IMG/VR virus record: IMGVR_UViG_3300032396_000038
Location: 1 to 39,700 of that record
Length of the DNA stretch: 39,700 nucleotides
Source: a virus
Direction: 5' to 3' (one strand)
The notes beneath the pieces were generated by a model that was not told the origin of the DNA, made no database searches, and saw only the letters and a program-made list of their open reading frames with translations. This document shows positions 1 through 39,700 of the stretch, piece after piece (within the stretch, counting starts at the first letter, position 1; each line of letters begins with the position of its first letter). Position numbers and translations under genes: made by a program.

Positions 1-280
1 ACCGAGGAAAACATCTAAGCCTTTGGTATTCATCCGTGATGTCAAAGAGAAAAAGAACGCTGACAAAGTATTTTTTAAGAAAGTGGAAAAGACGGTTTAC
101 GAGACGAAAGAGGAAAAGCACAATCCTGCGGAGACGAAGGATTTCTCAAACATACCAATAAGCAAGCTGAAGGCTGCAATAGGAGAATATTCTGTTGCTG
201 AATTAACAGAGTTATTGAAAGATGAGAGAGTAAGTGCCGTAAGGCTCGCACGTGAAGAACTAAAGAGACGTGAGGGTTGA
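1..280 (+). CDS. Small post-capsid protein, 3' part of a gene spanning the circular junction
   Basis: This is the C-terminal part of a 113-residue protein whose ATG is at 39498. Joining 39498-39559 to 1-280 gives one open frame. The TTG at 23 is therefore not the start. The protein is basic at the N-terminus and charged in the middle. It ends in a helical motif, YSVAELTELLKDERVSAVRL, of a kind often seen at the C-terminus of small head-region phage proteins. It directly follows the major capsid gene after a hairpin terminator, and its stop overlaps the next gene by 11 nt. The function is unknown; a head accessory or capsid-decorating role is only an inference from position. Confidence 0.75.
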   Translation, partial: PRKTSKPLVFIRDVKEKKNADKVFFKKVEKTVYETKEEKHNPAETKDFSNIPISKLKAAIGEYSVAELTELLKDERVSAVRLAREELKRREG

Positions 281-1031
281 ACAGATAAGAGTGAGCCGTA
301 ATGTTAAATTCTTCGGACCGCGAATGATCCGGAAATTTAACCTAATGCCTTTTGATAATCCCGCAGAGCCGGTAGTCATGTACGGGATCTATAATGAAGA
401 TGACTACAAGTTCTTTGAAACATTTGAGCCAAATATTATCGCACTGTGGCGCGGAACTGACGCACTTGTAACTAATCCTGCACGTGCTGCCAGGATCCTG
501 AAGAAAACCAACTGTAAACATTATGCAGTCAGTAAGGACGTTCAGAGAAGCCTTGCACGGTGGGATATAAAGTCAGAGATCCTTCCAATAACATCAACAG
601 ACCCACGGATAAAACGGGAGGGCCGGGGCAACTGGGTTTATTGTTACATATCATCCAAAAGCCCGGTTATGGCTGCCAAATATAAGCTTAACATCCTGCA
701 TAAACTTGAAAGGGATTTAAGGAGGAAATTTGTTTACACCACGCTTCACGGGCTTCCGTATGAAAAGCTCTCACAGGTTTACAAAAAATGCTTTGTCGGC
801 ATCCGTCTTCTTGACCATGACGGTATGTCAAATTCGATCCTTGAAATGGGATTGATGGGGCGAAGGACGATAAGCAATTCCGGGCTGCCTTATACTATTC
901 CCTGGACAAATTATAAATCGATCCGAAGGGCAATCGAAAGGGAGTTTAAGCACAGGATGGAGGATAATTCAGAGATCAGCAGCGCATATCGTAAACTGAT
1001 AGACATAGGCGACGCATGGTTGGAATATTAG
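270..1031 (+). CDS. GT-B-like glycosyltransferase (GT4/GT1-type C-terminal half)
   Basis: The protein has 253 residues and a GTG start overlapping the previous gene by 11 nt. The C-terminal half has the GT4-like arrangement: a segment LSQVYKKCFVGIRLLDHDG followed by SNSILEMGLMGRRTI. This resembles the E-x7-E nucleotide-sugar binding region, where an acidic residue contacts the donor. It is short for a complete GT-B enzyme (usually 350-400 residues), so the N-terminal acceptor domain may be reduced. It is the first of five genes with overlapping ends that encode sugar- or methyl-transferases between the capsid and connector genes. The likely substrate is a virion protein or an attached glycan (inference). 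The family assignment is from motif pattern only. Confidence 0.6.
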   Translation: MRVEQIRVSRNVKFFGPRMIRKFNLMPFDNPAEPVVMYGIYNEDDYKFFETFEPNIIALWRGTDALVTNPARAARILKKTNCKHYAVSKDVQRSLARWDIKSEILPITSTDPRIKREGRGNWVYCYISSKSPVMAAKYKLNILHKLERDLRRKFVYTTLHGLPYEKLSQVYKKCFVGIRLLDHDGMSNSILEMGLMGRRTISNSGLPYTIPWTNYKSIRRAIEREFKHRMEDNSEISSAYRKLIDIGDAWLEY

Positions 1032-1831
1032 CAAATAATGCTGCTTATGGCAATGCTGCTGCCCTTGCCGAAGGGATGCGGAAAATAACCGATACCGTTG
1101 TATATTTCCGAAGGGATGACCCGAAGGGATTTCATAAACAGACTGAATCGGTAAAAAAAGTACCCGACTGCGATATGTACGTTGTGATGGGTGCTATTTC
1201 ACTGGGACTATTGCCGAAAAAGAAACGTAAGGCGTGCCTGGTACTTACCGACAGTACGTACATGGATAACCCAGCAAAGTATAACAGGATGATCCAGGTG
1301 AATAAATGGAAAGTCTTTGCGATGCCGGACCTTGCACCTCTTTGCGGTACCAAAAATATCTATTACCAGCCTTTCATCATGCCCGCGGTCGATAAGATAA
1401 AAACAGAACTGATCTGTCACAGCCCTTATAACGATGCGAAGGCGAAGCAGAAAGGTACTACACTGATTGCCGCTGTATGTGCAAAGAACAATCTTCCGCT
1501 GACAGTCATTAAAGGTCTGTCATGGCAGGAGACAATTAAATTAAAGGCAAGGTATTTGATCTGTATAGATCAGCTCTTTCGGGGCATAGGCAAATCGGGA
1601 CTTGAGGCGATATTACTTGACTGCGTTGTGATGACAGGAGAAAAGCCCCGTGGTGATAACCTTCCCCCGGTAGTTTGGACAGACAAAAACAGATTAAGTG
1701 ACGATTTGGTTGAACTGATATTTAACCGGGATAAAAGGGAGGAAGTTATTTACAATCAGAGTACCTGGGCAGCAAAGAATTTAAACCCGGAATATATGGC
1801 CGGGAAAATATACGAAGTGTTATGCGGATAG
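1016..1831 (+). CDS. Second GT-B-like glycosyltransferase
   Basis: The protein has 271 residues. Its ATG overlaps the preceding gene by 16 nt. The N-terminus, VGILANNAAYGNAAALAEGM, looks like a Rossmann-type strand-loop-helix. The C-terminal part, ICIDQLFRGIGKSGLEAILL, followed by CVVMTG, matches the donor-binding region of GT-B enzymes (a conserved S/G-LEA pattern with an acidic residue). It overlaps the following methyltransferase by 10 nt, so the block is translationally coupled. Donor and acceptor cannot be read from the sequence. A TDP-glycosyltransferase or a capsular-type transferase would be alternatives. Confidence 0.55.
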   Translation: MVGILANNAAYGNAAALAEGMRKITDTVVYFRRDDPKGFHKQTESVKKVPDCDMYVVMGAISLGLLPKKKRKACLVLTDSTYMDNPAKYNRMIQVNKWKVFAMPDLAPLCGTKNIYYQPFIMPAVDKIKTELICHSPYNDAKAKQKGTTLIAAVCAKNNLPLTVIKGLSWQETIKLKARYLICIDQLFRGIGKSGLEAILLDCVVMTGEKPRGDNLPPVVWTDKNRLSDDLVELIFNRDKREEVIYNQSTWAAKNLNPEYMAGKIYEVLCG

Positions 1832-2352
1832 ATAATTCATTTGAGCGTTACAGGAAATCAGGGAATGACCGGTATGAATATTCCGTATCTCATTTGTTTG
1901 GTTCGGTTTTGGATGTTGGTTGTGGCGATGGGTATGGAATAGTTCTTATGAACAATCAATCTGCTATCAAAAAAATAACAGGAATAGATATTCAGTCAGA
2001 AGCAATACAGGCAGCAATGACAAATCTACATGGGATTGACGCAATAGTTTTGACGGCAGAAGCCGAGAATATTCCCTTTCCGTGCAATTCTTTTGATTCA
2101 GTTCATTGCGGACAAACACTGGAGCATGTAAAAGATGACGAGAAGGTATTAAAAGAGATTCAGCGAGTTGTAAGAAAGCGAGCTGTAATTTCGGTTCCGA
2201 TAAATGGTGGGTTATCCGAACAGCATGTAAGGCAATATAAGAGCGAAAGGGAGTTCAAAGACAAAGTAAGTAAATATTTCAAAGTTGTTGATAGTAAGAT
2301 TTTTATTGATGAAAAGAAGCATAAACGGGTAGTTTTGATCGCAGAGAAATGA
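1822..2352 (+). CDS. SAM-dependent class I methyltransferase (type 11-like)
   Basis: The protein has 176 residues. Motif I, SVLDVGCGDGYG at about residues 28-39, is a textbook SAM-binding loop. It is followed by an acidic post-I residue in ITGIDIQ and a motif IV-like stretch, FDSVHCGQTLEHV, typical of Methyltransf_11 proteins. The family is known for methylating small molecules, sugars and proteins. Here it sits between glycosyltransferases and an FkbM-like gene, with a 4-nt overlap with the latter. Sugar O-methylation of a glycan made by the neighbours is the simplest inference. Confidence 0.85.
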   Translation: MRIDNSFERYRKSGNDRYEYSVSHLFGSVLDVGCGDGYGIVLMNNQSAIKKITGIDIQSEAIQAAMTNLHGIDAIVLTAEAENIPFPCNSFDSVHCGQTLEHVKDDEKVLKEIQRVVRKRAVISVPINGGLSEQHVRQYKSEREFKDKVSKYFKVVDSKIFIDEKKHKRVVLIAEK

Positions 2353-2918
2353 GAAATATCTTTATTGATATCGGAGGTTGGACCGGAGTAAGTGTAGAGT
2401 TTTTTCTTGCTACACACCCGCGCGCGCGCGAGTTTGATATATTTACTTTCGAGTGTGACCGGAGAAATATCGAAGTTATCGAAAGAAAAAATCTCCCGAT
2501 AACACTGGTTAAGAAAGGAGTCTGGAGTTGTAATGGTAAAGTGCGATTTTATTATGCCAATGGTGGGACAAAAGCAGGAGGTACGATGTACCCTGGAAAG
2601 AAAACAGGCCATGTCAGCCGTGATAAATACTATGATGTTCAATGCATTGATATTGCGGAATTTATAAGGTTTTTCGATGAGGGGGATTATATCATTATGA
2701 AACTTAACTGCGAGGGTGCAGAATATGAGATTATACCGCGACTTGCAGAAGAGGGATTACTTAGCCGGGTGAGTAAATGGTATATTCAATGGCACTGGGA
2801 TAAGATCGGTTTAAGCAGGGAAGATCATAATCGGATATCGGGCATGATCAAATGGTTCCCATGGAAGGCTCAGATGAATGCAAAGAATTTTAAAGAAGAG
2901 TTTTTAAAGACTATATGA
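2349..2918 (+). CDS. FkbM-family methyltransferase
   Basis: The protein has 189 residues. It starts with IFIDIGGWTGVSVEFFL, a motif I variant of FkbM enzymes. It carries the C-terminal FkbM hallmark IIMKLNCEGAEYEII at about residues 115-129, where MKxxxEGxE is conserved. FkbM proteins are O-methyltransferases often found in polysaccharide and glycopeptide pathways. It is linked by an ATGA overlap to the methyltransferase before it and by a 4-nt overlap to the large glycosyltransferase after it. A (CG)6 tract at 2419-2430 lies early in the gene and encodes Arg-Ala-Arg. Confidence 0.85.
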   Translation: MRNIFIDIGGWTGVSVEFFLATHPRAREFDIFTFECDRRNIEVIERKNLPITLVKKGVWSCNGKVRFYYANGGTKAGGTMYPGKKTGHVSRDKYYDVQCIDIAEFIRFFDEGDYIIMKLNCEGAEYEIIPRLAEEGLLSRVSKWYIQWHWDKIGLSREDHNRISGMIKWFPWKAQMNAKNFKEEFLKTI

Positions 2919-5158
2919 GGCATCTACTTGTAACACGGCTTTGGTTCGATAGCGTTACCCTGATGGATAAATACCTGGATATTGCTTTGCAGACCTTTAT
3001 CCCTACGTTAAAGGCACAGACATGCAAGGATTTTGAATTTGGGATCTTACTAAAGAAAGAACATATCGACCATGTACGCTCGCGAATAGGGATGGATTTC
3101 ACGCCATTTACCGGGGGTATAGAAACATTCAGGGATGAGGTTGTAAAAGGCAAATATACTCTTCAGACGCGCCACGACATTGATGACTGGATGGCACCTA
3201 CATATATCGAAGAGATACAGAAGGTTTACAGGTCGAATAAAGATAAGTATGATTCATTTGTGATATTTGCACAACCTATTAAAGTCGAGTTGCCCTCAGG
3301 TAAGAAATCCGAAGTTGCGCCGTATCATGCCAGGCGGATATCCATGTTCGCCACGTTGTACCAGAAAAATCCGAAATTTCCAGTCTATAAGGGCTCACAC
3401 GGCGCACTCTGGAAATATGCAGATACCGTCTTTGAGCTTCCTAAAGGATTGGTCCGATGGGTTCAACATCCATATTCTGTTACTAATGCCCGGATGAAAC
3501 AAAAAGGAATACAACAGGTCGGCAATATGAGGTTATATGATGAGGATCATAACTGGATATCGGAACGCGCTATTGATCCGGTAATCAATATTCTTACCCG
3601 CACGTTTAAAAGGCCGGAGTCATTTAAGAAATGCCGTGAATCCGTTCTTTCACAAACGTATAATAAAAGCGAAGGTAAATTCGGCGACCGTCAAAGACTG
3701 ATAAATCATATTGTCGGGTCGGAAGTCGAATGCCCGTATTGTCCTGAAGCGATAAGACTAAAGAAGAAAGAAGGTAAGTTCTTGCCTTGGAACCTTCATC
3801 TTAATGACCTCGGAAAACAGGTAAAAACCGGATGGGTAATGTACCTTGATGATGATGATATGTTTATGTCACCAACATCGGTACAGGAAATTGTTGACGA
3901 AATAACAGATGAAGATACACTACTAATCTGGAAAGTGAAAATATCTACATGGACGGCACCTAATGACAAACATTTTGGGAAGGTGATTAAAAAAGGCCAG
4001 GTATCAGGGATAGGGATATTATTTCATTCAAAACATCTCCCTGTACCATGGAAAGCTATTCCGGCTGGAGATTTTCATGTTATTGAATATTTGAGTAAGA
4101 AATTAAAAGTTAAATGGGTGAATAAGATACTTACAGGTACACAGGAGGGACGGAATCATCACGGTAAAACGCCGGATTGTGAAATCGTTAAAAACAATCC
4201 GCGATTAAAGCTGGTGCCGGTAAAATCAATTAAGCCGGAACTTGTTAAAGGATTGGTGACTGTTGGAACGCCAACATGGAACAATGGTGATATATTCTGG
4301 ATCAGCATAGAATCGTTATGCAGACAGAGAACATCATTCCCTTGGGAATATATTGTTCACGAATGCCCGTCACCTAATCCGGTCGGAGAAGCTTTTATAA
4401 TGAAATACAAAGACCGGTTAGTACATGCCGGATGTGTGCGGATACAATATATCAATCAGGGTAAACGGCTCGATCTTTCAACTAAATGGAAACAAATAGC
4501 GGATGCAGCGCGCGGGGAAATACTCGTAATGCACGACTCTGATGATTATACCCATCCGCTTCGTATTGAGCGAACAATGGAACTGATCGGGGACAAACCC
4601 TGGTATGATACCCGTTATGCCTGGCACTATTCTATTCCTTTGAATAAACTGATCTTGTATGATTACCAGATCACAAAGAAGCGATGGAAGACCGGATTTA
4701 ATATTGCACTCCGAACTGATATCTTGAGGCATATTCCTGATCCGCATAAGAACGCAGGTATGCACCGATGGATGGTCGATTACGTCAATGACAAGATTGT
4801 TGACAGTACTAAATATCCATGTGTAGCCACAACAGGGATGAATACCGTGTCGCTTTCACGGACAAGACAGTTCAATCACCCTTCGCCGCCGTTTGTAAAG
4901 ACGGAACACACTATCAAAGACATAGGATTGCCGGAAGATATTGTAACGGCTCTTGTTAAGAATAAGACAGTAACAGCACTGGATATTCAAAGGGCAGGAG
5001 AGAAGGTCGAGGTAATATTCACAAAGGATTACTGCCGGTTATACAAGAAAGGAGATGTTAAACGCATACCCCGGCAGGCTTATGACATACTTGTAAAGAA
5101 ACATCATTGCAAATTATTGAAGGAAGATGTTCTGGACCCTGTAAATGTAGAAATATGA
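2915..5158 (+). CDS. Large glycosyltransferase with three tandem GT-A-like domains
   Basis: The protein has 747 residues. Domain 1 (about 1-215) resembles the putative rhamnosyltransferase family, with HDIDDWM at about 87-93 as the likely metal/donor DxD. Domain 2 (about 222-430) opens VINILTRTFKRPESF and has YLDDDDMF at about 310-317. Domain 3 (about 445-650) opens LVTVGTPTWNNGDIFWIS and has MHDSDDYTH at about 539-547. Each domain therefore carries its own acidic metal-binding motif. The last ~50 residues, with LYKKGDVKRIPRQAYDILVK, look like a small add-on module of the kind seen at the ends of other phage head-region proteins. It ends by ATGA overlap with the connector gene. Three linked activities suggest stepwise assembly of a short glycan. 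Confidence 0.8.
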   Translation: MRHLLVTRLWFDSVTLMDKYLDIALQTFIPTLKAQTCKDFEFGILLKKEHIDHVRSRIGMDFTPFTGGIETFRDEVVKGKYTLQTRHDIDDWMAPTYIEEIQKVYRSNKDKYDSFVIFAQPIKVELPSGKKSEVAPYHARRISMFATLYQKNPKFPVYKGSHGALWKYADTVFELPKGLVRWVQHPYSVTNARMKQKGIQQVGNMRLYDEDHNWISERAIDPVINILTRTFKRPESFKKCRESVLSQTYNKSEGKFGDRQRLINHIVGSEVECPYCPEAIRLKKKEGKFLPWNLHLNDLGKQVKTGWVMYLDDDDMFMSPTSVQEIVDEITDEDTLLIWKVKISTWTAPNDKHFGKVIKKGQVSGIGILFHSKHLPVPWKAIPAGDFHVIEYLSKKLKVKWVNKILTGTQEGRNHHGKTPDCEIVKNNPRLKLVPVKSIKPELVKGLVTVGTPTWNNGDIFWISIESLCRQRTSFPWEYIVHECPSPNPVGEAFIMKYKDRLVHAGCVRIQYINQGKRLDLSTKWKQIADAARGEILVMHDSDDYTHPLRIERTMELIGDKPWYDTRYAWHYSIPLNKLILYDYQITKKRWKTGFNIALRTDILRHIPDPHKNAGMHRWMVDYVNDKIVDSTKYPCVATTGMNTVSLSRTRQFNHPSPPFVKTEHTIKDIGLPEDIVTALVKNKTVTALDIQRAGEKVEVIFTKDYCRLYKKGDVKRIPRQAYDILVKKHHCKLLKEDVLDPVNVEI

Positions 5159-5586
5159 AAGTAGTTATAACGACAGATATTACACTTGAACCCTTAACCC
5201 TGGAGGAAGTCAAAGAAGCTTTGAAGGTTACGGGTACGGGACATGATACTGAATTATCACGGCTTATTACCGATGCACGTCAATATATCGAAAGAGCTAT
5301 TGATACCTCGGTATCTACGAGGACAATCGAAGTAACTTCTGATATCGAGCTGGAGGAATGGGAACTTCCGCTGGGGCCGGTTTCAAACCTTGTTGAGACA
5401 ACCGATGCTGATGATAACTACGTTTATACTTATACGGGCGGGGATACAACTTGTTCGGCTGATATTAAACGACTAATAACATTTTTGATAAAGCACTGGT
5501 ACGATATTGATGATGAGGCAAAGGCATTACCTGAATCAATTCAAAAGCAGATACTGTTAAGAACACGTCAACCAATGGGGATATGA
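5155..5586 (+). CDS. Head-tail connector, HK97 gp6-like
   Basis: The protein has 143 residues. The ATG at 5155 is chosen because it overlaps the upstream stop as ATGA; an upstream in-frame ATG at 5107 would add 16 residues inside the transferase gene. The sequence LTLEEVKEALKVTGTGHDTELSRLITDARQYIERAI (positions about 19-54) has the typical gp6-like start: an alpha-helical connector that forms a ring beneath the portal. The C-terminus, KHWYD plus acidic helix and LPESIQKQILLR, also fits the family. It begins the connector series 5155-6755, in which each stop overlaps the next start. Confidence 0.8.
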   Translation: MKVVITTDITLEPLTLEEVKEALKVTGTGHDTELSRLITDARQYIERAIDTSVSTRTIEVTSDIELEEWELPLGPVSNLVETTDADDNYVYTYTGGDTTCSADIKRLITFLIKHWYDIDDEAKALPESIQKQILLRTRQPMGI

Positions 5587-5924
5587 AACTTCAGGACCGT
5601 GTAACGATATATGAAAGATTAAGCACTTCGGACGGTGCCGGGGGACGAACTCCGGGTACGCTGTCTCAGGTAACCTGGACATGGGGAAACGTTAAGCCGA
5701 TGTCAGGGTTTATCGGTATGACATTTCAAAACATTAATGGTACACAGGGATATGAGGTTATTATCCGGACTGATTTCGATTTCCCGCCTGAAAAGACTTA
5801 TTACCTCGGTTACGAAGGGATATACGGCGAAGTATTATTATTGATACATAGTGTTCAGATTGACAAATACTATACTAAACTAACTTGCAAAAGTGAAAAT
5901 AAGCCTGCAGTTCAAACAACCTGA
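5583..5924 (+). CDS. Head-tail adaptor/joining protein (SPP1 gp16/HK97 gp7-like)
   Basis: The protein has 113 residues and an ATGA start overlap with the previous gene. The opening MKLQDRVTIYERLSTSDGAGG followed by VTWTWGNVKPMSG is characteristic of the beta-rich head-tail joining family (stopper). The tail of the protein, with YYLGYEGIYGEVLLLIHSV, supports this. It acts at the neck, closing the capsid until the tail attaches. Length and gene order (gp6-like, this gene, gp10-like) match the family. Confidence 0.8.
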   Translation: MKLQDRVTIYERLSTSDGAGGRTPGTLSQVTWTWGNVKPMSGFIGMTFQNINGTQGYEVIIRTDFDFPPEKTYYLGYEGIYGEVLLLIHSVQIDKYYTKLTCKSENKPAVQTT

Positions 5925-6309
5925 CCTGGCAAAGAGATACAGGAAGATGAAGCCGGAACTTGAAAAAGAGGTTAAGGATGCTGTTCTTATTGCTACACGG
6001 CAAACGAGCTACAATGCAAAGAGTTTTGCTGCGGTGGATAAGTCGGCGATGAAAAACAGTATCCGTCCTTTTAATAAAGGTCTTACAGGTGAGGTTATTG
6101 TCGGTGCAGAATATGGGCCTTATGTTGAGTTTGGTACAGGATCAGGGGTCGTTGTTCCAACAGAGCTAAAGGATTATGCTATTCAGTTCAAAGGCAAGGG
6201 GATAAGGAAGGTCAATACACGGGCGCAACCATATCTGTACCCTGCATTTTTTATTAACCGTGACAAATTTATAAAGGCTTGTGACAATATACTGAAGAAA
6301 GTATTATGA
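5893..6309 (+). CDS. Tail component, HK97 gp10-like
   Basis: The protein has 138 residues. The first start in frame is GTG at 5893, overlapping the adaptor by 32 nt; an ATG at 5947 is an alternative. The helix EKEVKDAVLIATRQTSYNAK, then IVGAEYGPYVEFGTGSG, is the hallmark of the gp10-like family (the xxYGxYVEFGTG motif). Near the end RAQPYLYPAFF is also conserved in the family. It likely sits at the head-proximal end of the tail. Confidence 0.8.
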   Translation: MKISLQFKQPDLAKRYRKMKPELEKEVKDAVLIATRQTSYNAKSFAAVDKSAMKNSIRPFNKGLTGEVIVGAEYGPYVEFGTGSGVVVPTELKDYAIQFKGKGIRKVNTRAQPYLYPAFFINRDKFIKACDNILKKVL

Positions 6310-6755
6310 AAGATTGCTTTTATCAATATCGTAAAGGACTTTATATTAATCTAAGTACACTCACTTATCAGGGACAACCTATCCCGGTTATGGAATATGC
6401 CCCGAAGAATGAAGTACCGCCATATATCCAGATACTTAATATGTCATCCCAATTTGAACGTGATGATACAAAGGAATGCCAGAATGTAACCACAGATATT
6501 ATGGTCGTGACATCGCATTCGGGCGAGCCTGGGGAATTTGGATCAAAGCAGTCCGATGATATTATGAACGATATAATGGAACTGTTTATAACGAAAGGAG
6601 TTACAGTTTCAGACCGTGCGAAGCATATTGTAATGGCAGATTTTGAAGATGCAGGATGTTTTCTATTGGCACTTAATTACAATCCTGAATTTGACGGGGC
6701 GAAGACAACTATAAGAAAAGTATTAACAATTCAAACACAGATAACAGAGAAATAG
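6306..6755 (+). CDS. Tail completion/terminator-like protein
   Basis: The protein has 149 residues and a 4-nt overlap with the previous gene. It has the expected position (between gp10-like and major tail protein) and size for a tail terminator of the DUF3168/lambda gpU type. The pattern PVMEYAPKNEVPPYIQIL followed by TDIMVVTSHSGEPGEFGS fits such proteins, in which an oligomeric cap stops tail-tube growth. No active-site motif is expected. The assignment rests largely on gene order. Confidence 0.6.
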   Translation: MKDCFYQYRKGLYINLSTLTYQGQPIPVMEYAPKNEVPPYIQILNMSSQFERDDTKECQNVTTDIMVVTSHSGEPGEFGSKQSDDIMNDIMELFITKGVTVSDRAKHIVMADFEDAGCFLLALNYNPEFDGAKTTIRKVLTIQTQITEK

Positions 6756-6778
6756 GTTTAATTTAATATTTATGTAAA

Positions 6779-7171
6779 ATGGCAAAAATCAAAGGTTACA
6801 ATGTAAGGCTTTATCTGGGGGCTAATATTCTGGCCCATACCACCGAGGTATCAATAAACCTCACAACTGATACAGAGGAATTGACGGATGCGGATAGCGG
6901 GGACTTCAAAGAATTTGGCCCCACGCTTAACAGCGGTACTGTTGATGTTTCAACATGGTACAATAATGCTGTCGGTGCCGGTGAGGCTGATTTCCAGGAT
7001 GTTCTTGATGCACATCTTGCACAAACACTACTTACGCTTGTAGCGGAAGTCGAAGCGGGCGTTGAGATATCCGGAAGCGGTTATCTTACTTCGCTGACTC
7101 CTTCAGGCGGGACGGGTGCGGGATATGTCAAGTTCGATGCTGGATTCATCTTTACTGGGGAATATTCCTAA
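6779..7171 (+). CDS. Major tail (tube) protein, TP901-1-like
   Basis: The protein has 130 residues. It begins MAKIKGYNVRLYLGANILAH and continues with TEVSINLTTDTEELTDADSG, typical of the TP901-1/phi13 major tail protein family. The rest is beta-rich and ends in YVKFDAGFIFTGEYS. It has a separate AT-rich leader (6756-6778) rather than the overlapping starts of its neighbours, as expected for a highly translated tube subunit. It is immediately followed by the tail assembly chaperone pair. Confidence 0.85.
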   Translation: MAKIKGYNVRLYLGANILAHTTEVSINLTTDTEELTDADSGDFKEFGPTLNSGTVDVSTWYNNAVGAGEADFQDVLDAHLAQTLLTLVAEVEAGVEISGSGYLTSLTPSGGTGAGYVKFDAGFIFTGEYS

Positions 7172-7536
7172 TGGTTGACACGGTTGAGATAAAGAGGCGA
7201 TTTCGCAGCGTGGTGGGATTTCGTTTCAATGCCCTTGCCGGATACTTATTGTGTCAGCATTGGGGCGTTGATTTGAACAGCATGGATAAGATCCCGGCAG
7301 ATGAATACCTGTCATCATACCTATGGTGCGCCCATCGATCATTCTCCATGATGCGTTATCGCAAACCTGTTATCCGGACTCCGGAAAGGATGAAATGCTG
7401 GATTGAGAACTTGCGTAAAAACAAATGGGATGTCATTGTCAAAGCTATGACTGAGGCGAAGGGCGAGGCCGGAGATGATAAAAAAAAAGTTCCAGTTGGG
7501 CAGAACTCTTCACCGCAGGATGGAGGGCAGGGATAG
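7171..7536 (+). CDS. Tail assembly chaperone, short form (gpG-like)
   Basis: The protein has 121 residues in the zero frame, starting one base inside the stop of the tail protein. It is located between the tube gene and the tape measure gene, the universal place for tail chaperones. It is helical, with a charged Gly/Lys/Gln-rich tail after residue 100. The frame passes through a run of nine A at 7480-7488 encoding Lys-Lys-Lys, 15 codons before the stop. A -1 shift there enters a 114-codon frame that ends exactly at the tape measure start. Confidence 0.85.
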   Translation: MVDTVEIKRRFRSVVGFRFNALAGYLLCQHWGVDLNSMDKIPADEYLSSYLWCAHRSFSMMRYRKPVIRTPERMKCWIENLRKNKWDVIVKAMTEAKGEAGDDKKKVPVGQNSSPQDGGQG

Positions 7537-7832
7537 CAGAGAATGATCTGCTTCAACTATCTTTTGCCCAGATAGGAAGGTTATTTGAAGGTTATTTATT
7601 AAGACAGGAGGATGAATGGCGAAAGTTCCGACTGGTAGCTTACGAGACATGGCGGCACGGTGCAAAGAACGCTCCCGGAATTGAGTCTTATATGCCAATT
7701 GGAAAGGAAGATAAAAAGCCGGAGATGACAAAATCGGAACTTGATGATATCTGGAAGAAATACGGCAAACTGGATAAAAAGAAAAAACGGGTAAAGGTTC
7801 AGAAGTTTTTAAGGGATAAGATGAGGAAATAA
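7171..7832 (+). CDS. Tail assembly chaperone, -1 frameshifted long form (gpGT-like)
   Basis: Translation through 7171-7488 (106 codons), a -1 slip, then 7488-7832 (114 codons plus stop) gives a fusion of about 220 residues. The second frame reads SSWAELFTAGWRAGIAENDL just after the slip and ends in a strongly basic tail with RDKMRK. It has no convincing start codon of its own, so frameshifting is the natural way to express it. Its TAA overlaps the tape measure ATG by one base. In lambda-like phages the T domain recruits tail tube subunits while the G domain coats the tape measure; the same role is inferred here. Confidence 0.85.
7480..7488 (+). promoter_or_regulatory. Programmed -1 ribosomal frameshift slippery site
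   Basis: Nine consecutive A, read AAA AAA AAA in the zero frame, form the A-AAA-AAA heptamer. The -1 frame stays open downstream to 7832, while the zero frame stops at 7536. Coding potential and position both match the tail chaperone frameshift of long-tailed phages. I did not identify a strong stimulating pseudoknot just downstream. Confidence 0.85.
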
Positions 7833-9886
7833 TGTCAGAACAAGAACACAAAGCGAAGTTTACTGCGGATACCAGCGGTTTTGAGAAGGGGGTTGATAAG
7901 GTATCAAAAAAAGCAACTGGACTTAGTGATCATATTAAGAAACTGGGTAAGTATTTTGCATCAGCTTTTGGTATTACGGCGGTAGCATTAAAGGCGGTGC
8001 AATCTATCAAAAGCATTATTGCCGCTAATGTTCAGTTTGAGAAGTCTCTTGCAAGCCTCAGCGCCATAACAGGGGTAACAGGAGATGACTTAAAGTTTTA
8101 TGGCAATGTTGCCCGTGAGATAGGTAAAACAACAACTATCAGTGCCAATGAAGCAGTAGAGGCATTTAAGCTTATGGGTTCTGCCCGTCCTGAATTGCTA
8201 AAGAATAAAGAAGCATTAGCGGCAGTTACAAGAGAAGCTGTTATTCTTTCCGAAGCATCAGGTCTGGATTTGCGTACCTCGGTGGAATCACTTGCCAATA
8301 CAATGAACCAGTTTAATATCCCGGCAAGTGACGCAGCGAAAACAATAAATGTACTTGCAGCAGGAAGTAAGGAGGGCGCAGAAGAAGTCCCCGGCCTTGC
8401 AATGGCTATAACAAGGATGGGGACCGCTGCTGCAATGGCGAATATTTCTCTTGAATCCTCGGTTGCGATGATTGAAGTCCTGGCCGAGAAAGGGATAGAC
8501 AGCGCAAAGGCTGGTATTATGCTGAGGAATGTAATTATCAAATTACAATCCGGTACAGATAAATATAATCCGTCCATTGTAGGATTGAACACAGCATTAA
8601 CTAACCTGTCTAAAGCAAACCTGTCGGCAGCTGAACTGACAGAGATGTTCGGATTAGAGAATCTGAACGCTGCTGCCATTCTGATTCAGAGCAAAGATCG
8701 GATAAATGAATTGACTACTGCTATAACAGGCACTAATGTTGCTTACGATCAGCATTCTAAAATGGTGGATACCGTTGAAGCACAGTGGAAGATATTCATT
8801 AATACGCTTAAGGACGTAACAATAGCAAGTGACGGCTTTACCAATTCATTAAAGACAAGCCTCAAAGCAGGTACTGATTTCATACAGGGATTACAAGAAG
8901 TAAAGAATACTGACAATCTGAAGTGGTGGCAGAAAATTGCTATTTTATTTAATCAGGCAATTCCCGGCGGTATAAAATATACAAGAGAGGAATTGGACGC
9001 GCTGACACGTTCGGGAAAATATGCAAGCAAAACAGAAGAGGGATTAGCTGCTGATACTGAAGCGGCAGCAGAGGCAGCAAGAAAACAAGCGGAGGCAGAA
9101 GCAGAGTCAGTAAAACAGGCAAAAGCACATTCTTTAACCGTCAAAGGATACCGGGAGAAGATAGAAGAATTAACCGAGAGTCTTGGTAATCTGACAATAG
9201 GCCACGGAGAAGAGGCCGAAGCAATAAAAAATGAGATTGCACAATTACAAGCTTTAATTGACAAGACTCTCAATTATAAAACAATAATAAAGACTCCTGA
9301 TGTTGCAGATACAGGTTTTACGGTCGGGATGGAGCTTATGCAGGATACGTCTGCACAGAAAGAACTCGATGATATCCTAAAGCAAGTTGACGAAGATTTA
9401 AAAACTATAAAGCCGGAACTTACAGCAGCCCAACAGGCCGCCAAATCCTTTGGTGATGAATTAATGCAAGCCGGTATTCAGGGAAGTAATTCCATGAAAG
9501 AATTTGCGAGGGTCGCTGTGGATGTTGCTGAGAAAGTTATTGCCACGTATGTTGCAGAAGCCGTTGCCGGGGCTGTTAAGTCTGCATTGGTTGGTGTCCC
9601 GTTCCCGTTTAACATAGCTGCTGCGGGTATTGCCGGGGGGTTGGCTGCCGCTGCTATTAATGCTGCTATCCCTGAGTTTGCTGCAGGCGGTGGTGTTTCG
9701 GGCCCTACAATGGCAATGATCGGCGAGGCTCCAGGGATATCACGGTCAAATCCTGAATACATAGGTACTGCAAAACAGTTATCACAGATGGGCATAGGAG
9801 GAAAAGCATTGAGTTGTCGTGTTAGTCGTGGTGATTTATTATTTGTTCTTAACGAAAGTCAGGCATCTTCAGGGAGGAACTTTTAA
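7832..9886 (+). CDS. Tail tape measure protein (TP901 family)
   Basis: The protein has 684 residues and is the longest helical protein in the tail region. The N-terminus has ADTSGFEKGVDKVSKKATGL, typical of tape measure proteins. It is followed by the TP901-type core: long helices, GKTTTISANEAVEAFKLMGS, then SVAMIEVLAEKGIDSAKAG. A coiled-coil segment lies around residues 410-490. A hydrophobic Ala/Gly-rich stretch at about 570-615 (AAAGIAGGLAAAAINAAIPE) is likely to insert in the membrane during DNA ejection. At the usual length ratio it predicts a tail of roughly 100 nm (inference). The start is fixed by the one-base overlap with the chaperone frame. Confidence 0.9.
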   Translation: MSEQEHKAKFTADTSGFEKGVDKVSKKATGLSDHIKKLGKYFASAFGITAVALKAVQSIKSIIAANVQFEKSLASLSAITGVTGDDLKFYGNVAREIGKTTTISANEAVEAFKLMGSARPELLKNKEALAAVTREAVILSEASGLDLRTSVESLANTMNQFNIPASDAAKTINVLAAGSKEGAEEVPGLAMAITRMGTAAAMANISLESSVAMIEVLAEKGIDSAKAGIMLRNVIIKLQSGTDKYNPSIVGLNTALTNLSKANLSAAELTEMFGLENLNAAAILIQSKDRINELTTAITGTNVAYDQHSKMVDTVEAQWKIFINTLKDVTIASDGFTNSLKTSLKAGTDFIQGLQEVKNTDNLKWWQKIAILFNQAIPGGIKYTREELDALTRSGKYASKTEEGLAADTEAAAEAARKQAEAEAESVKQAKAHSLTVKGYREKIEELTESLGNLTIGHGEEAEAIKNEIAQLQALIDKTLNYKTIIKTPDVADTGFTVGMELMQDTSAQKELDDILKQVDEDLKTIKPELTAAQQAAKSFGDELMQAGIQGSNSMKEFARVAVDVAEKVIATYVAEAVAGAVKSALVGVPFPFNIAAAGIAGGLAAAAINAAIPEFAAGGGVSGPTMAMIGEAPGISRSNPEYIGTAKQLSQMGIGGKALSCRVSRGDLLFVLNESQASSGRNF

Positions 9887-12800
9887 ATGGCATGGGCGGT
9901 CAAATATAGTAAGAAATTTCAGCGGATGGGCGTCACGGCCACGTACCGGATAGATATTCTCTCCGAAGCCGGGGGGCCGGTTATTACACCTTGGAAGATG
10001 GGTGCCGATCCATGCCAGTTAAAAACACTGGGAGCCGAAAGAGATGAGAATAAAACGGTTATCGGCTCTGAATTAACATTTGAATTTGTCCTTCAAAAAC
10101 GAATAGGGGAAGCAAATTATGACGCCCTATTTCAATCGGAATACCGGGAACATATAGTCAAGTATTATAATGATGACACTTCGACACTTCTCTGGCAGGG
10201 ATATCTTCAGCCGGAGAATATGTATAAATCGATATTTGAATCTAACCTTCACATTTATTGTTCTGCTACCGATGCACTGAAAGACCTGGCAGATTTCAAA
10301 TTTCTTAACGGTGACGACTTAATAACCGGGCATGTATCAGGGCTTCAGATATTAAAATACTGCCTTGCAAACCTTGATACAGGGTCACAATTCCAATATA
10401 ACTTCATTGTTAAGCTCGGTACTAAACATGCCGGTCAGGGTGCCAATGATACAGCACTCAAAGATGTGACGCATGATACAAGGAGATTTTACAGGCTATC
10501 GGACGGGAAAACAGAGATAGATGACTGTCTGACAGTTATCGAGAAAATCCTTAAATCATATTCTTGTACCCTTCAGCAATGGGGCGGGAAATATTACATT
10601 TTATCAAAACACGAGGCTGCAACTAATTATTATACTTATAATTGGGCCTTAGCTTTCGTGAGCAAAGCCGCTTCCAGTGATTCTATTACGATCGATAATT
10701 ATAAGTTCAGCCGGGATGCTGATAAGAGTTATCTTCCGCCAATTAAAGAGGCAACCGTCCGGCTATTAAACCGTAATATCGGCGATTGCCTTGTAGCGAA
10801 TATTAATGATTATGACGGCGGGGCGTGGGATTATTCAAATTATACCGGGGCTTATGATGATACTCAGGCGGTCATGGAGCTTACCGCCGAAGCAGGAATT
10901 GCGCCTGTTGATAATGGTTATGTAACGCTTGCCGCTGACGAAGCGATCCAGAAACTTACCGAAGGGGATTATTTGAAGATAACATTTAAGTACCGGACAA
11001 TTACACCTACACTTGGATCAAATAACCCTCATTTCAGAATAATAGCAGTCAAAGACGGCGTTGATTATCCGGGACTGGATTACATTATTACCGAGGCATG
11101 GGCAACGTATGAATCTGAGGTATCGGCTGCGTTCAAATTGATCGGGGGTGTGGGAGATACTTATGACTATAATTTTAAGTTACAGGTATATTCCGAGGAT
11201 GGATTAACAGATTTTGAATTAGAGCTTTATGATTTCAATTTTACCCGTGTAGTATATATCGAAGAAGACAGCCAGGAAGATGTGACGTTCGATTCATTTT
11301 ACAGAGGAACGATTACCCAGGGGAAGCAAATCAGGGAAACAGAGGATTTGTATTTTGGTGATTCCCCGACAACGGGCGATTTTGCAGGGCTGATATATGC
11401 AGCAGCGCAGACTGATGAATGGAACCGGGAAGGATCGGCTGATGCTCAATCACTGATATGGTGCTGGCTCAAGAATTATCTTATTTCAAGACAGAACTAT
11501 ACCGAGTATGTTATCTGCAATATAAAAGATTCAGGGGACAATATAACGCCGATTAATTACATAATCTGGAACGGGAAGAAATATCATATTGTATCTTATG
11601 ATAAGTCATGGCGCAGGTCGTGGATATCATTGCACCTGAAGGAATGGATTACAGACGATATCGCTATCGGTTACGAAGCTATACCGCTGACTTCTATTGA
11701 TGGGGAGAGTGCTGCCGGTACTTCGACTATTCTTTCCGCAACGCCATTCACAGATCATAACTCATCGACAGGCAAGCAGGGTGGTGCTGTCGGGCAGTAT
11801 TATCATTTAGATGCAGCAGATTATACCGAGTTGCATAACTGGCTGGATAACGTCACGCTTGGGGCAGACGGAAGTACTACGCTTGTCGGTGTAACAACTA
11901 TCAATGGTAGTGTCAATGAATTTATTACTGTTAATGCTACCGGGACGCCTCATGCATTGGTTATTAATCGTACAGATGCTGGCAATGTTCATCTATCATT
12001 TACCAACCCGACAACCGGAACGGGATTAGCTTCTGGCACTGACATTGGTATAGAAGCAGACGGCACGGCACGGATCAGGCAGCAGGAAAACATGCCACTG
12101 GAGTTCTATACTAATAATTTACATAGGTGGACTATTCTGGCAAATGGCAATCTTGTTAGTGAATTGGCAGGTGCCGGTACTGAAGGTATAACCACAGCCG
12201 GGGTGATACGGGCCGGTTCTCTTATAGTTGACGACTTGACAGATGGGTATATCCCATATCAAGTTGCAGCAACTGATAAGTTAGGCAACAGCCCTATTTT
12301 TACAGATGGGACTAATATAGGAATTAATAATGCCAGTCCATCTAAAAGATTTGTAATAGGAGATAGCACTTCAGTTGACCAACAGCCATTAGTAGTTTGG
12401 GGAGTCTCTCAAGCATTTTCAACTACACAAGGAACATTAGCTATTAATAGTACTACTGCACAAGCTGCTGATTTAGGGGGTAGTATAGTGTTTGGAGGAA
12501 ATGATGGGACATTGACTGATCGTACTTTTGCTGCCATTGCTGGACGTAAAGAAAATTCTACAAATGGAAATTATGATGGTTATTTTGCAATAGCTACTCG
12601 GTCTAATGGAGGGGTACCGACAGAAAAATTTAGAATAACAAGTGGTGGTAATGTAGGTATTTTGACTACTACGCCGACAGTATCATTACAAGTAGCAGGT
12701 ACGGGTATCAAATCTGAAACAGTACAGAGCATAACAACTTATTCTACAGGCTTTTTCGGTGACGGTTACAAAATAATTGAAACAGGCGGTAAAACAACTG

Positions 12801-14668: not shown

Positions 14669-16026
14669 TGACAGCATTAAAAGACGTATTAAGGCCCGTT
14701 CTAAGGCCGGTTGTTTATCCGGTCAATAATGATAGTGCTTTTTCGTGGCAAAGTTACTGGATGAAACGATTTGACTTCTTTTATATAGGGGGTCTGTCGG
14801 GCAATAATCTTGACGATATTACTTCCAATAATTTTGATATTACAATAACTGGGAAGGATTTCTCAGGTGATTATATTCCATATACTTCTGCCGCTACATT
14901 CCAAGCTCCAGATAATGCTACGCTAAAAACTGATGATACAGACTATCTATGGTTTGACCGTAATGGGGTAGTAAGAAATGTTGAAGTAAGTGAATTGGTA
15001 GGTTATGACTTTGCCCGGACAATAGTTAAATATGACAATTCTGCTCCTTATCATATACGGTTTATTGGAATCCTGAAATCAGGAGAGACTTTAAGCGAAG
15101 CTGAATTAACAAAATTATATTCTGATTTTGAGTTAAGTCAATTCTGGTCAGGTGCACTGGATGGTCGTGGTGTTATCAAGGGCAATCGTGCAGGAGCACA
15201 ATCCGTTTGGCCGGTTATCAGTCAGGCAGCACTCAATTATTCAGATACTTATAAGACCGCCGTTGAAGCTGATGGTGGTGTGATAATCAGTATGAAGATG
15301 GTTCAATCTGAATATCAGAGATTAATAAACACCGGGAACATTCTTTCCTGCTGGTATGCTTATCATTATCAATGCGGAGTTAAAAAGGCTGTTGTTGATT
15401 ACGGTGGCGGTGTAACGGGAGATATGGTATCCAAGTGGTACAATATGTCTCCGGTTGCCGGAAGATTTGCAGCAAGTGTTGCTCCATATTCAGTGGCTCC
15501 AGGGACAGATGCAAGACCGGAATATACTGCATTGGGATTAAGGTTTAGAACGACAAACCTTGATGGAGGTGTAAGGTGCGGTCTTGAAAATGCAGCAACA
15601 GTGTTAACAAATAATACAGGGAAATTAAGATTTAATGCCACTGTAACTTCATTAGGTGCTTCACCAATAGCAGGAAAGGGTTTTTCTGCTGGGACGAATG
15701 GGATAATAATGATACAAGATGTGGTAACAACAAGAAAAATATCATTAACATACTCTGTGGCTGATACTGCTTATGCCCAACTTTCAACAGCTGCTTTTTT
15801 TACTGATGGAGTAGAGACAAGAATAGGACTATATATAATTTACGGGGCTAATGATTCGGTTGCAATATACAAAGATGATAATCTTGTTGAAACATTAGCT
15901 GCAACCTTTGGCCCAAATTCTCAATATCCGCAGGTTAGCTATGGCGATATGATAGGCTGTATAAGAGTAAGTGGACGGTCTATGTTTAATGGTTATATCA
16001 AACAAATTGAATTATTTACTCTGTAA
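14668..16026 (+). CDS. Tail fibre/receptor-binding protein with LamG-like C-terminal domain
   Basis: The protein has 452 residues. The N-terminus, MTALKDVLRPVLRPVVYPV, contains a short repeated LRPV motif, a pattern seen in anchor segments of fibre proteins. Residues about 230-452 are beta-rich with alternating Gly/Asn/Asp and end GDMIGCIRVSGRSMFNGYIK plus IELF, which fits a LamG/concanavalin-like jellyroll that can bind carbohydrate. The gene abuts both neighbours by one-base overlap. The role in adsorption to host surface glycans is inferred. Confidence 0.6.
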   Translation: MTALKDVLRPVLRPVVYPVNNDSAFSWQSYWMKRFDFFYIGGLSGNNLDDITSNNFDITITGKDFSGDYIPYTSAATFQAPDNATLKTDDTDYLWFDRNGVVRNVEVSELVGYDFARTIVKYDNSAPYHIRFIGILKSGETLSEAELTKLYSDFELSQFWSGALDGRGVIKGNRAGAQSVWPVISQAALNYSDTYKTAVEADGGVIISMKMVQSEYQRLINTGNILSCWYAYHYQCGVKKAVVDYGGGVTGDMVSKWYNMSPVAGRFAASVAPYSVAPGTDARPEYTALGLRFRTTNLDGGVRCGLENAATVLTNNTGKLRFNATVTSLGASPIAGKGFSAGTNGIIMIQDVVTTRKISLTYSVADTAYAQLSTAAFFTDGVETRIGLYIIYGANDSVAIYKDDNLVETLAATFGPNSQYPQVSYGDMIGCIRVSGRSMFNGYIKQIELFTL

Positions 16027-27449: not shown

Positions 27450-27820
27450 AAGCAAATGAATTGAGAATAGGGAACTGGTATTCTGAATATGGAATACCAA
27501 AACAAGTACTTCCATTGCAAATATTAGGCTTGTATCAAATTGAACAGGCAGGAAAAATTGTTTTAGATATGACACCTATTCCCCTGACTGAAGAATGGTT
27601 GGTTAAGCTTGGGTTTGAGAAAACAGACAGAGATGTTTTGTTCTATGAAAAAAGAAATTTAGTTGTAGAATGGCTTTTTGAAAGATGGACGGGTAGATTA
27701 TATCTCGATGCTGGTGATTCTGCTCGAATTATTGAGGTCAAATACGTCCATCAACTTCAGAACTTATATTTCGCATTAACCGGCGAAGAACTTAGTATGA
27801 ACCAACTGACTAAAGAATGA
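27446..27820 (+). CDS. Conserved Bacteroidota-phage protein (MKANELRIGN family)
   Basis: The protein has 124 residues. It opens MKANELRIGNWY, carries PIPLTEEWLVKLGFEK in the middle and VHQLQNLYFALTGEEL near the end. These three motifs are a recurring set in gut Bacteroidota phages and prophages. The function has not been assigned to the family as far as I know. It is coupled by ATGA overlaps on both sides. Confidence 0.75.
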   Translation: MKANELRIGNWYSEYGIPKQVLPLQILGLYQIEQAGKIVLDMTPIPLTEEWLVKLGFEKTDRDVLFYEKRNLVVEWLFERWTGRLYLDAGDSARIIEVKYVHQLQNLYFALTGEELSMNQLTKE

Positions 27821-37358: not shown

Positions 37359-38077
37359 AAAATTTTAAGTACGGACATCCATGTACTGAGATCAAGGACC
37401 TGAACCTGAAAGACAGGATTGTTCAGGCTTATTACTTCAATGCTCAGACCATTGATAGTGATAATGACATTATTGACATTAACGCTTACGATAAGAGCAT
37501 CAGTGAGCGGGGTCCGAAGTCAGCAATGCCCAGGATAAAGCACCTGTTTAATCACTGGGAAGGCACAGGCGTCCTTCAGGAACTCGGCAAGGATGAGAAA
37601 GGCGGATGGTTCATATCGAAACTTGGACGGCATCAGGTCGGTAATGATGTGCTGCTGATGTATGAGGACGGTTTGATAACAGAACATTCGCATGGTTTTG
37701 AGACAATCAATTCATCCGTTGAGACTGTCGATAGCAAGGAAATACGAAGGATCAAAGAGGGTATTCTCTGGGAAGTCACATCGCTCGACAAATGGGGTGC
37801 CAATATGAACACGCCTGTTATGAAGTCGATGGAAGATAAAAACTTCTGGACAAAGCGTATCGAGAAGCTGATGAAAGCTATCGCATCAGGGAAATATACT
37901 GATGAGACTTTTGAGAATCTTGAGATTCAATTAAAACAGATACAGGAAATGATAAGGCAGTTTGAAAAGCCGGAGCAACTACCCACCCCGCAGGGGGCCG
38001 GGGGCCAGTCCACTTTTAAATGGCCGACAAACATAGTATTAACCAATAAAAACATTTACAGTGGAATACAAATTTAA
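37355..38077 (+). CDS. Prohead protease (HK97/U35-like)
   Basis: The protein has 240 residues. The catalytic set of the serine-type prohead protease family is visible: MPRIKHLFNHWEGTG at about 58-72 (candidate His63 or His67) and LITEHSHGFETIN at about 107-119 (Ser112). It cleaves the capsid delta domain during maturation. The C-terminal ~40 residues, with an Ala/Gln/Pro-rich linker, are probably autocleaved. It overlaps the capsid start by 17 nt. Confidence 0.88.
   Translation: MKNFKYGHPCTEIKDLNLKDRIVQAYYFNAQTIDSDNDIIDINAYDKSISERGPKSAMPRIKHLFNHWEGTGVLQELGKDEKGGWFISKLGRHQVGNDVLLMYEDGLITEHSHGFETINSSVETVDSKEIRRIKEGILWEVTSLDKWGANMNTPVMKSMEDKNFWTKRIEKLMKAIASGKYTDETFENLEIQLKQIQEMIRQFEKPEQLPTPQGAGGQSTFKWPTNIVLTNKNIYSGIQI
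38027..38043 (+). repeat. 17-nt leader repeat, copy 2, before the major capsid gene
   Basis: ACAAACATAGTATTAAC lies 17 nt before the capsid start codon and within the 3' end of the protease gene. It matches the copy at 17573-17589. It fits a ribosome-loading or mRNA-processing leader for a strongly expressed gene. Confidence 0.6.
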
Positions 38078-39440
38078 ATACATCAAACTCCCTGAAAATC
38101 ATGGGTTTGATGAGGCACAGTTAAAATTCTTACAGACCGTTGACGAGGGGTTTGTGAAAAGTGCCGAAGGAATCACCAAGAAGGAAGACATTGACAAGAT
38201 CAAGTCTGAATTTATGGAGAAACTCGTTGAAATGAAAAAGGACGTCCAGTTTGAGAAGCTTCAGAAGCAGATCAATGACGTCTATGTGGAACTCGAAAAG
38301 GCCGGGATGAAGCCTGCTGTTACCAAAGAAGAGATCACTCTCAAGGAGAGGGATATGAACAGCAAGTGGATACGCGCCCTTATCAAGAAGGATGAGCCGG
38401 AGATGATGCGGATATTCAAAGAGTTGAAAGCAACGATGACTTATCCGATGGAGCCGATAATGCACCTTGGCCCTGCAACCGATGAAATTGCTCTTGATCT
38501 CACCCAGGGTGGATACCTTATTCCTTCGATGCTGCTTGCCGAAGTGAACCGGTTTGTCATCTCCGGCGGAGTGGCCCGGAGGGAGATGCGTTATCTTCCT
38601 TTTGCCGGGGCCGGGAATCAGCGTTATATCCCGACACTGCTTACCAACGTTGTTGTAAGCTGGATCGATGAGGGTGAAGAAAAACCGAAGACAAAGCCAA
38701 CAATCGGAAGAGTTGAACAGACTCTGAAGAAACTGGCTGCAATTGTTATCTTCACGGAGGAAATCATCGAAGACGCAGCTATCGATTTGGTCGCACTTTG
38801 TGGTCAGCTTCTCGGTGAAGCAATCGCTGCCGAAGAAGACAATCAGTTTTTCTCAGGAACCGGTGCGCCGTGGGTCGGGATCATAAACGATCCTAATGTT
38901 GTTTCTGTTGCTCTTGCTGCCGGCGTTGGTCCGTTGGATATGAGACCTGAGGTATTGCTTGCAATGACCGTTGCTATTCCGGAGGGTGCCGTTCCTGGGG
39001 CAAAGTTTTACATGAACCGCCAGGTATGGGCCGCTATCTGCGCCCGCAGGAGTGATGCTGCAGCTGCAAACGATACGAAGGGTAATTACCTTATCCAACA
39101 GCCTTCACAGGGATCTCCCGGTTCGATATGGGGATTCCCGGTTGTGCTTGTCGAGGCAATGCCTTCGCTCACAGACCTCGGTTATGGTACAGGTGATGAT
39201 GAATGCGATCCTGACCTTCCGTTCCTGATCTTCGGAAACCTTCAGAAATGTTGCGTCTACGGAGACAAACAGGGTATCAGGGTTAAGCTGCTTGACCAGG
39301 CATCGGTTTACGATGAGAACAACCAGTTGGTTAACCTTGCCGAGCGTGATATGCTTGCACTGAGGGTTCATAAACGTGTAGGTTATGTCATTGTGCTTCC
39401 TTCGGGGATTGCCGTCCTGTCAACAGGGCCAGTATCGTAG
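38061..39440 (+). CDS. Major capsid protein (HK97 fold)
   Basis: The protein has 459 residues with a GTG start. The first ~125 residues are a coiled-coil delta/scaffold domain (helix with KIKSEFMEKLVEMKKDVQFE), likely removed by the protease near residues 125-135. The mature part has the HK97 features: GGYLIPSMLLAEVNRFVISG (N-arm and spine), the E-loop region with SWIDEGEEKPKTKPTIGRVE, then A-domain GVARREMRYLPFAGAGNQRY. It directly precedes a terminator. No separate scaffold gene is present, in keeping with the fused delta domain. Confidence 0.92.
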   Translation: MEYKFKYIKLPENHGFDEAQLKFLQTVDEGFVKSAEGITKKEDIDKIKSEFMEKLVEMKKDVQFEKLQKQINDVYVELEKAGMKPAVTKEEITLKERDMNSKWIRALIKKDEPEMMRIFKELKATMTYPMEPIMHLGPATDEIALDLTQGGYLIPSMLLAEVNRFVISGGVARREMRYLPFAGAGNQRYIPTLLTNVVVSWIDEGEEKPKTKPTIGRVEQTLKKLAAIVIFTEEIIEDAAIDLVALCGQLLGEAIAAEEDNQFFSGTGAPWVGIINDPNVVSVALAAGVGPLDMRPEVLLAMTVAIPEGAVPGAKFYMNRQVWAAICARRSDAAAANDTKGNYLIQQPSQGSPGSIWGFPVVLVEAMPSLTDLGYGTGDDECDPDLPFLIFGNLQKCCVYGDKQGIRVKLLDQASVYDENNQLVNLAERDMLALRVHKRVGYVIVLPSGIAVLSTGPVS

Positions 39441-39451
39441 TATTAACATAA

Positions 39452-39485
39452 AGGGGTGTGAGGGCAATACCTCACCCCTCTTTTT
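39452..39485 (+). terminator. Hairpin terminator after the major capsid gene
   Basis: AGGGGTGTGAGG (39452-39463) pairs with CCTCACCCCT (39470-39479) with a two-base bulge, loop GCAATA and a following T run (39481-39485). It lies 11 nt after the capsid stop and would reduce read-through into the next genes. This can explain lower expression of the transferase and connector genes relative to capsid. Confidence 0.7.
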
Positions 39486-39497
39486 AAAATCAAAGAT

Positions 39498-39700
39498 ATG
39501 AGACCATTAAAAAGACACAGTTTACCACTGGCACCTTTCGGCGTCCGTAAGAAAATGATACCGAGGAAAACATCTAAGCCTTTGGTATTCATCCGTGATG
39601 TCAAAGAGAAAAAGAACGCTGACAAAGTATTTTTTAAGAAAGTGGAAAAGACGGTTTACGAGACGAAAGAGGAAAAGCACAATCCTGCGGAGACGAAGGA
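39498..39700 (+). CDS. Small post-capsid protein, 5' part of the junction-spanning gene
   Basis: The ATG at 39498 follows AAAATCAAAGAT after the capsid terminator. The frame starts MRPLKRHSLPLAPFGVRKKM, is highly basic, and stays open to the end of the window. It continues in the same frame at positions 142-280 once the 141-base duplicate is removed, giving 113 residues. The two halves are one gene. Confidence 0.75.
   Translation, partial: MRPLKRHSLPLAPFGVRKKMIPRKTSKPLVFIRDVKEKKNADKVFFKKVEKTVYETKEEKHNPAETK
39560..39700 (+). repeat. 141-nt end overlap identical to positions 1-141
   Basis: The last 141 bases equal the first 141, base for base. This is the mark of a circular contig whose ends were not trimmed. 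An overlap of exactly 141 is also the largest default k-mer of the assembler MEGAHIT. I therefore read it as an assembly overlap rather than a real direct terminal repeat. The unique genome is 39,559 bp. Confidence 0.95.

Follow-up and report, generated by a model that had tools for sequence, protein, structure and literature searches.

A probable virion-glycosylation locus with a fixed three-domain enzyme and an exchangeable gene cassette between the capsid and connector genes of a phage lineage

The DNA analysed here (the window) is the 39,700-nucleotide stretch covering positions 1 to 39,700 of the IMG/VR virus record IMGVR_UViG_3300032396_000038, and our subject is a block of five glycosyltransferase (GT) and methyltransferase genes between its major capsid and head-tail connector genes. 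An exact 141-bp repeat is present at both window ends and closes the sequence into a circle of 39,559 bp. Because 141 is also a usual assembler k-mer size, this is not necessarily a genuine terminal repeat. The + strand carries, in order, the small and large terminase, portal, MuF-like, S78 protease and capsid genes, a gene for a protein of 113 amino acids (aa), the five-gene block, and the gp6-like connector, head completion and tail genes. The features from capsid to connector are listed below.

38061..39440, + strand: HK97-type major capsid protein, 459 aa, left flank (PF05065, 4.3e-38; phrog_10, 1.4e-52)
39450..39485, + strand: hairpin with a T-run, resembling an intrinsic terminator, just 3' of the capsid stop (core 39458-39475)
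39498..39559 then 1..280 across the circle joint, + strand: gene for the small 113-aa protein, an open reading frame (ORF) running over the 141-bp end repeat
270..1031, + strand: GT1, compact 253-aa GT-B (GT4-like) glycosyltransferase by predicted fold
1016..1831, + strand: GT2, 271-aa putative GT-B-like glycosyltransferase, from sequence motifs only
1822..2352, + strand: MT1, class I methyltransferase dependent on S-adenosylmethionine (SAM) (PF08241, 9.1e-21)
2349..2918, + strand: FkbM-type O-methyltransferase (PF05050, 1.3e-5; phrog_8156)
2915..5158, + strand: core enzyme, 747 aa, three tandem GT-A domains and a C-terminal domain (PF00535, 1.1e-12)
5155..5586, + strand: gp6-like head-tail connector, right flank (PF05135, 1.2e-6; phrog_442, 3.5e-13)

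All five block genes lie on the + strand and every start overlaps the preceding stop; the likely connector ATG at 5155, chosen by start context, overlaps the stop of the core enzyme. An earlier note on this DNA had described this overlapping chain at 270-5158, and its coordinates are right. It had also placed the block directly after the capsid gene, whereas the 113-aa gene and the terminator-like hairpin intervene. The overlapping starts suggest the coupling that it proposed, and matched protein amounts do not follow from them.

The core enzyme had been described as a GT-A protein. The GT-A assignment was confirmed, but the chain consists of three such domains (approximately residues 1-194, 219-413, and 445-680) and a C-terminal domain (~683-747). 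Fold comparison of the model identified the GT-A fold in domain 1 (Z 12.7) and domain 2 (Z 15.3), and domain 3 matches the Pfam GT2 family (PF00535) at residues 450-561 with 48.6 bits against a curated cut-off of 23.3. Each domain contains one acidic motif that is invariant across ten sequences (D88/D90/D91, D312-D315, and D541/D543/D544). The whole-chain model is moderate (predicted local distance difference test, pLDDT, 63) and leaves the domain arrangement undefined. The best Foldseek matches are two-domain GT-A polymerases, K4CP chondroitin polymerase and PmHS2. A rhamnosyltransferase family matches domain 1 weakly in the window and above the cut-off in the relative L028 (8.5e-7), which gives at most a hint of the sugar donor. 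A recent triplication of the GT-A domain is unsupported, as the three domains have no mutual relation detectable by profile. A collection of genome contigs contains no relative of the core enzyme, and the core enzyme, GT1, FkbM, and the small protein (L005 copy) have no match in a 50,697-record phage collection. Distant homologues of domain 2 occur in multi-gene glycosyltransferase clusters (L031:8240-15736; L032, L033, L034, and L013) directly downstream of a very large ORF and of a gene of 103/104 aa, which in L031 is baseplate-wedge-like; the phages that host these clusters are mostly other ones and often larger.

Both GT1 and GT2 had been called GT-B-like. For GT1 this is borne out by a confident AlphaFold2 model (pLDDT 91.8), in which the GT-B fold extends along the entire chain (Z 18.2, 240/253 residues aligned). 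Its top Foldseek matches include the protein O-glycosyltransferase SdgB, TarM, and SenB at ~9-14% identity, which is evidence for fold, not for function. GT1 has no family match, and a sequence-profile search of PDB gave none. GT2, which has no family match in Pfam or PHROG, is a putative GT-B-like glycosyltransferase on its motifs, and its homologues in L002, L006, and L012 share the conserved motif GKSGLEAxLLDC..TGxKP. The class I and FkbM-type methyltransferases recognized in the earlier note both score above their Pfam cut-offs (MT1, PF08241, 74.8 bits versus 21.2, with an intact SAM motif LDVGCGDG; FkbM, PF05050, 25.8 bits versus 22.7), and a single ORF in L002 unites the two. In a hydropathy scan, none of the five window enzymes had a predicted membrane segment, which counts against a system of the O-antigen-conversion type.

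Viral-contig searches that used the core enzyme and the capsid as queries yielded more than 20 contigs of one lineage. The region from capsid to connector is unbroken in 11 of them (the window, L003, L004, L005, L006, L007, L008, L016, L023, L028, and L030), and a twelfth genome is obtained if L018 and L002, which are opposite ends of a single 42,688-bp contig, are joined. All 12 genomes with both flanks have the order capsid, small gene, 0 to 4 variable genes, core enzyme, connector, with an endonuclease gene ahead of the small gene in 2 of the 12. Judged from the sequences, the recurrence of this order in 12/12 genomes is not due to chance. No lineage relative with capsid and connector but without the core enzyme was found, nor, when looked for within the lineage, one with the core enzyme in an early position, the placement that would have spoken against the earlier note's interpretation. 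A contig outside the lineage, L024 (capsid 43%), stops too soon after the capsid gene to show presence or lack of the block. Identity to the window is 56-80% for the core enzyme, 55-84% for the capsid, 51-80% for the connector, and 22-74% for GT1. The core enzyme is thus about as conserved as the capsid, indicating a core gene rather than an occasional passenger; in L028 it stands alone, with zero variable genes.

The variable genes form about nine sets, mostly of glycan-pathway types.

Set A: GT1-GT2-MT1-FkbM (window, L002/L018)
Set B: GT1-GT2-GSCFA-FkbM (L006, L012)
Set C: GT1, a PF00535 transferase, and a Gly_transf_sug-like transferase (L003, L027, L043)
Set D: ATP-grasp-like gene, in some with GT1, and a domain 3 paralogue (L004, L007, L010, L016, L037; L037 incomplete at contig end)
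Set E: GT1-epimerase-WbqC-DegT (L005)
Set F: GT1 and a 94-aa gene (L008, L021; L021 incomplete at contig end)
Set G: domain 3 paralogue alone (L023)
Set H: no variable gene (L028)
Set I: GT4-like gene and a methyltransferase (L041, incomplete at contig end)

The ATP-grasp reading of the gene in L004, L007, L010, and L016 is weak (PPIP5K, E 0.09). Stand-alone domain 3 paralogues (L004:7966-8694; L016:9628-10398; L023:6740-7537) carry AADN instead of the acidic motif DSDD and may have changed metal binding or be inactive. On the capsid tree, two well-supported pairs join L004 (set D) to L012 (set B) and L007 (D) to L008 (F); the window (A) pairs with L003 (C), with support 91/90. At least 11 set changes are required on the capsid tree of 18 rows, where the minimum possible is 8. 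This disagreement indicates that the cassette has been replaced between near relatives, though it is partly inherited. The gene pool is, by homology, wider than the lineage: L065, which has other structural genes, holds in one cluster homologues of DegT (69%), the ATP-grasp-like protein (45%), domain 3 (34%), and GT1 (23%), and L067 carries an epimerase homologue (58%). In L063, which has an unrelated capsid family, a GT4 gene and a GT1 homologue come straight after the capsid gene and a 141-aa gene. The L065 cluster (3103-11530) comprises about a dozen glycan genes downstream of the terminase gene of a 57.7-kb phage. Genes for GIY-YIG-like homing endonucleases, recognized by sequence pattern, occupy precisely the gap that separates the capsid hairpin from the small gene at L018:11393-12406, L035:7211-8056, and L006:1290-1970. 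Such endonucleases could drive cassette exchange through co-conversion.

The hairpin that follows the capsid gene has a predicted folding energy of -19.4 kcal/mol in the window (z -5.0). A post-capsid hairpin with z of -3.0 or below against mononucleotide shuffles is found in 18/19 lineage members, with sequences that differ between members; L043 is the sole exception in the lineage, and L024, outside it, has none. Read as a terminator, the hairpin would keep the output of block and connector below that of the capsid, and their expression would need readthrough or a promoter. Late expression together with the head genes had been proposed; the late timing is unweakened, and joint or equal expression with the capsid becomes doubtful.

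We consider it likely that the block is a virion-glycosylation locus made of a fixed core and an exchangeable cassette. This reading is drawn from the disagreement of the sets with the capsid tree, the mostly glycan-type variable genes, the joint MT1-FkbM ORF of L002, the GT1 homologue near the L063 capsid, and the precedent of Corndogvirus described below. The virion is favored as the target because the block is fixed in the head operon of every relative, overlaps the connector, and encodes enzymes without predicted membrane segments; the conservation of the core enzyme points the same way. Glycosylation and methylation of virion proteins, as suggested in the earlier note, thus stands as the best explanation, supported by the same place and overlap, by the predicted soluble type of the enzymes, and by Corndogvirus. 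In the proposed mechanism, the core enzyme would assemble a short core glycan in the host cytoplasm on at least one virion protein, possibly with each domain adding one sugar; candidate acceptors are the capsid, tail tube, small protein, and connector. The cassette genes would lengthen and tailor this glycan. With two further glycosyltransferases and two methyltransferases, the window product would be a methyl-capped oligosaccharide, and relatives that exchange the cassette for other transferases, GSCFA or amino-deoxy-sugar genes would gain a serotype-like variety. Several points weigh against this interpretation. Glycan and acceptor are predictions from the genes, the sequence does not reveal the donor sugars, and the core enzyme is modelled with only moderate confidence. 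The conserved hairpin may uncouple expression of the block from that of the capsid. In other phages, clusters close to baseplate-like genes hold distant homologues of domain 2, so the domain family is not tied to heads.

Among the alternatives, a host-directed block survives best. Its enzymes would alter glycans of the infected cell surface or host proteins, resulting in superinfection exclusion or receptor masking, and would merely be placed in the late operon. Many phage glycosyltransferases are indeed classed as moron or host-takeover genes and the cassette genes resemble surface-polysaccharide genes, but the lack of predicted membrane segments in the five enzymes, the absence of a flippase or polyprenyl transferase among the cassette families, the fixed head-module place with its connector overlap, and the capsid-like conservation of the core enzyme make this unlikely. 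It is still less probable that the post-capsid gap is an insertion hotspot that gathers passengers with the help of homing endonucleases, its cassette having no common virion function: the endonuclease genes in L018, L035, and L006 and the widely differing gene sets would fit, whereas the variable genes are nearly all glycan-related and the three-domain enzyme is always kept, even alone. Modification of phage DNA, in which the transferases would sugar-decorate modified bases and their position would be incidental, is very improbable, for although phage glycosyltransferases can decorate hypermodified DNA (PMC12619734), no base-hypermodification gene was found among the genome proteins scanned (several small ORFs were left unscanned) and the variable NDP-sugar genes suit oligosaccharide building better.

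The small protein encoded after the capsid has no convincing Pfam or PHROG family. Its linker contains a TKEEK motif, in many cases with ETK after it, that is near-invariant in 19 members; the remainder varies, and the C-terminal part is helical. The synonymous codons of TKEEK vary among members, indicating that selection acts on the protein and ruling out a DNA-level constraint on the motif. Between the core enzyme's C-terminal domain and the small protein's N-terminal domain there is a resemblance that is at most suggestive: the single-comparison E is 0.0056 and the hhalign probability only 6.6%, but the likeness beats 200/200 column shuffles and 51/51 control segments. In a distant capsid relative from a Bacteroidales bin (L050), a single case, the capsid gene is followed by a 60-aa gene that lacks the TKEEK motif, and the block is absent. 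In an Oceanotoga phage (L051), a 47-aa gene before the connector shows weak similarity to the small protein (E 0.018) and none to the C-terminal domain of the core enzyme. As an extension of the virion-glycosylation reading, the small protein might be a dedicated glycan-bearing virion protein with its TKEEK...ETK linker; the core enzyme would find the site through its C-terminal domain, and endonuclease-aided cassette swapping would switch the glycan serotype of the particle. We regard this extension as tentative and rather doubtful.

Elsewhere in the window, a late gene (16026-17552) contains a BamB/PQQ-like beta-propeller stretch (PF13360, 9e-10) and possibly encodes a tail-tip or receptor-binding protein. 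A 1475-aa protein downstream of the tape measure (9887-14314) has no Pfam or PHROG match. A protein with a DnaA C-terminal helix-turn-helix domain (PF08299, 4e-16) is encoded at 26380-26853, and a candidate lysin of glucosaminidase type (PF01832, 6e-17) at 27817-28272.

The host is likely a member of Bacteroidota, as judged from two sequence observations: a Shine-Dalgarno-like motif precedes just 3/50 starts, and the capsid search of genome contigs gave, as sole cellular relative of the capsid, a single distant locus in an uncultured Bacteroidales bin. For tailed phages, most experimental knowledge of virion glycosylation comes from a few mycobacteriophages. The present lineage is a separate one with probably Bacteroidales-like hosts; it seems to treat virion glycosylation as standard equipment and to swap genes for variety in the outer part of the glycan, like bacteria with their O-antigens. 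If this is true, phage particles carry glycan serotypes, and one fixed three-domain enzyme with exchangeable tailoring genes offers a compact, testable model that a laboratory strain could express.

Compared with known systems, the five window enzymes, free of membrane segments by the hydropathy scan, do not resemble the membrane proteins of Gtr-type serotype conversion (the flippase GtrA, GtrB, and GtrC), which act on exported O-antigen. K4CP and PmHS2 share with the core enzyme tandem GT-A domains on one chain, but they have two domains and make a repeating polymer, whereas the core enzyme has three plus a C-terminal domain and belongs to a phage head operon. In its working, the best analogue is chlorovirus PBCV-1, for which no homology is claimed: A064R and A111/114R, with A061L, are soluble three-domain enzymes and virus methyltransferases that make a capsid glycan, and antigenic variants map to A064R. 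PBCV-1 differs in being a eukaryotic virus with N-glycans, another domain mix, and scattered, early-expressed genes. Che8 (cluster F) likewise encodes its own transferases (108-110), of which gp110 is reported to be essential for capsid glycosylation (PMC12363180); unlike the window block, they lie at the far right genome end, distant from the head genes. The closest in position is Corndogvirus (mycobacteriophage cluster O), which also has methyltransferase and glycosyltransferase genes within the head module, so the head-module position is not as unusual as the earlier note had held. In its member Krili, genes 32-35 encode an O-methyltransferase and three glycosyltransferases, overlapping, between portal and protease. 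In two articles (PMC11600133, PMC12363180), glycosylation of the Corndog capsid and tail tube is reported as experimental, after Freeman et al. 2023. Corndogvirus differs in its portal-protease site, which is not post-capsid, and in its single-domain-sized enzymes. At the sequence level, tblastn of the window enzymes against the Che8 and Krili regions returned no match with an E below 0.06. Literature searches, of partial coverage, did not find this exact arrangement. A head-module site for such transferases is thus already known; what appears to be new is that a fixed three-domain enzyme is combined with a cassette of exchangeable genes.

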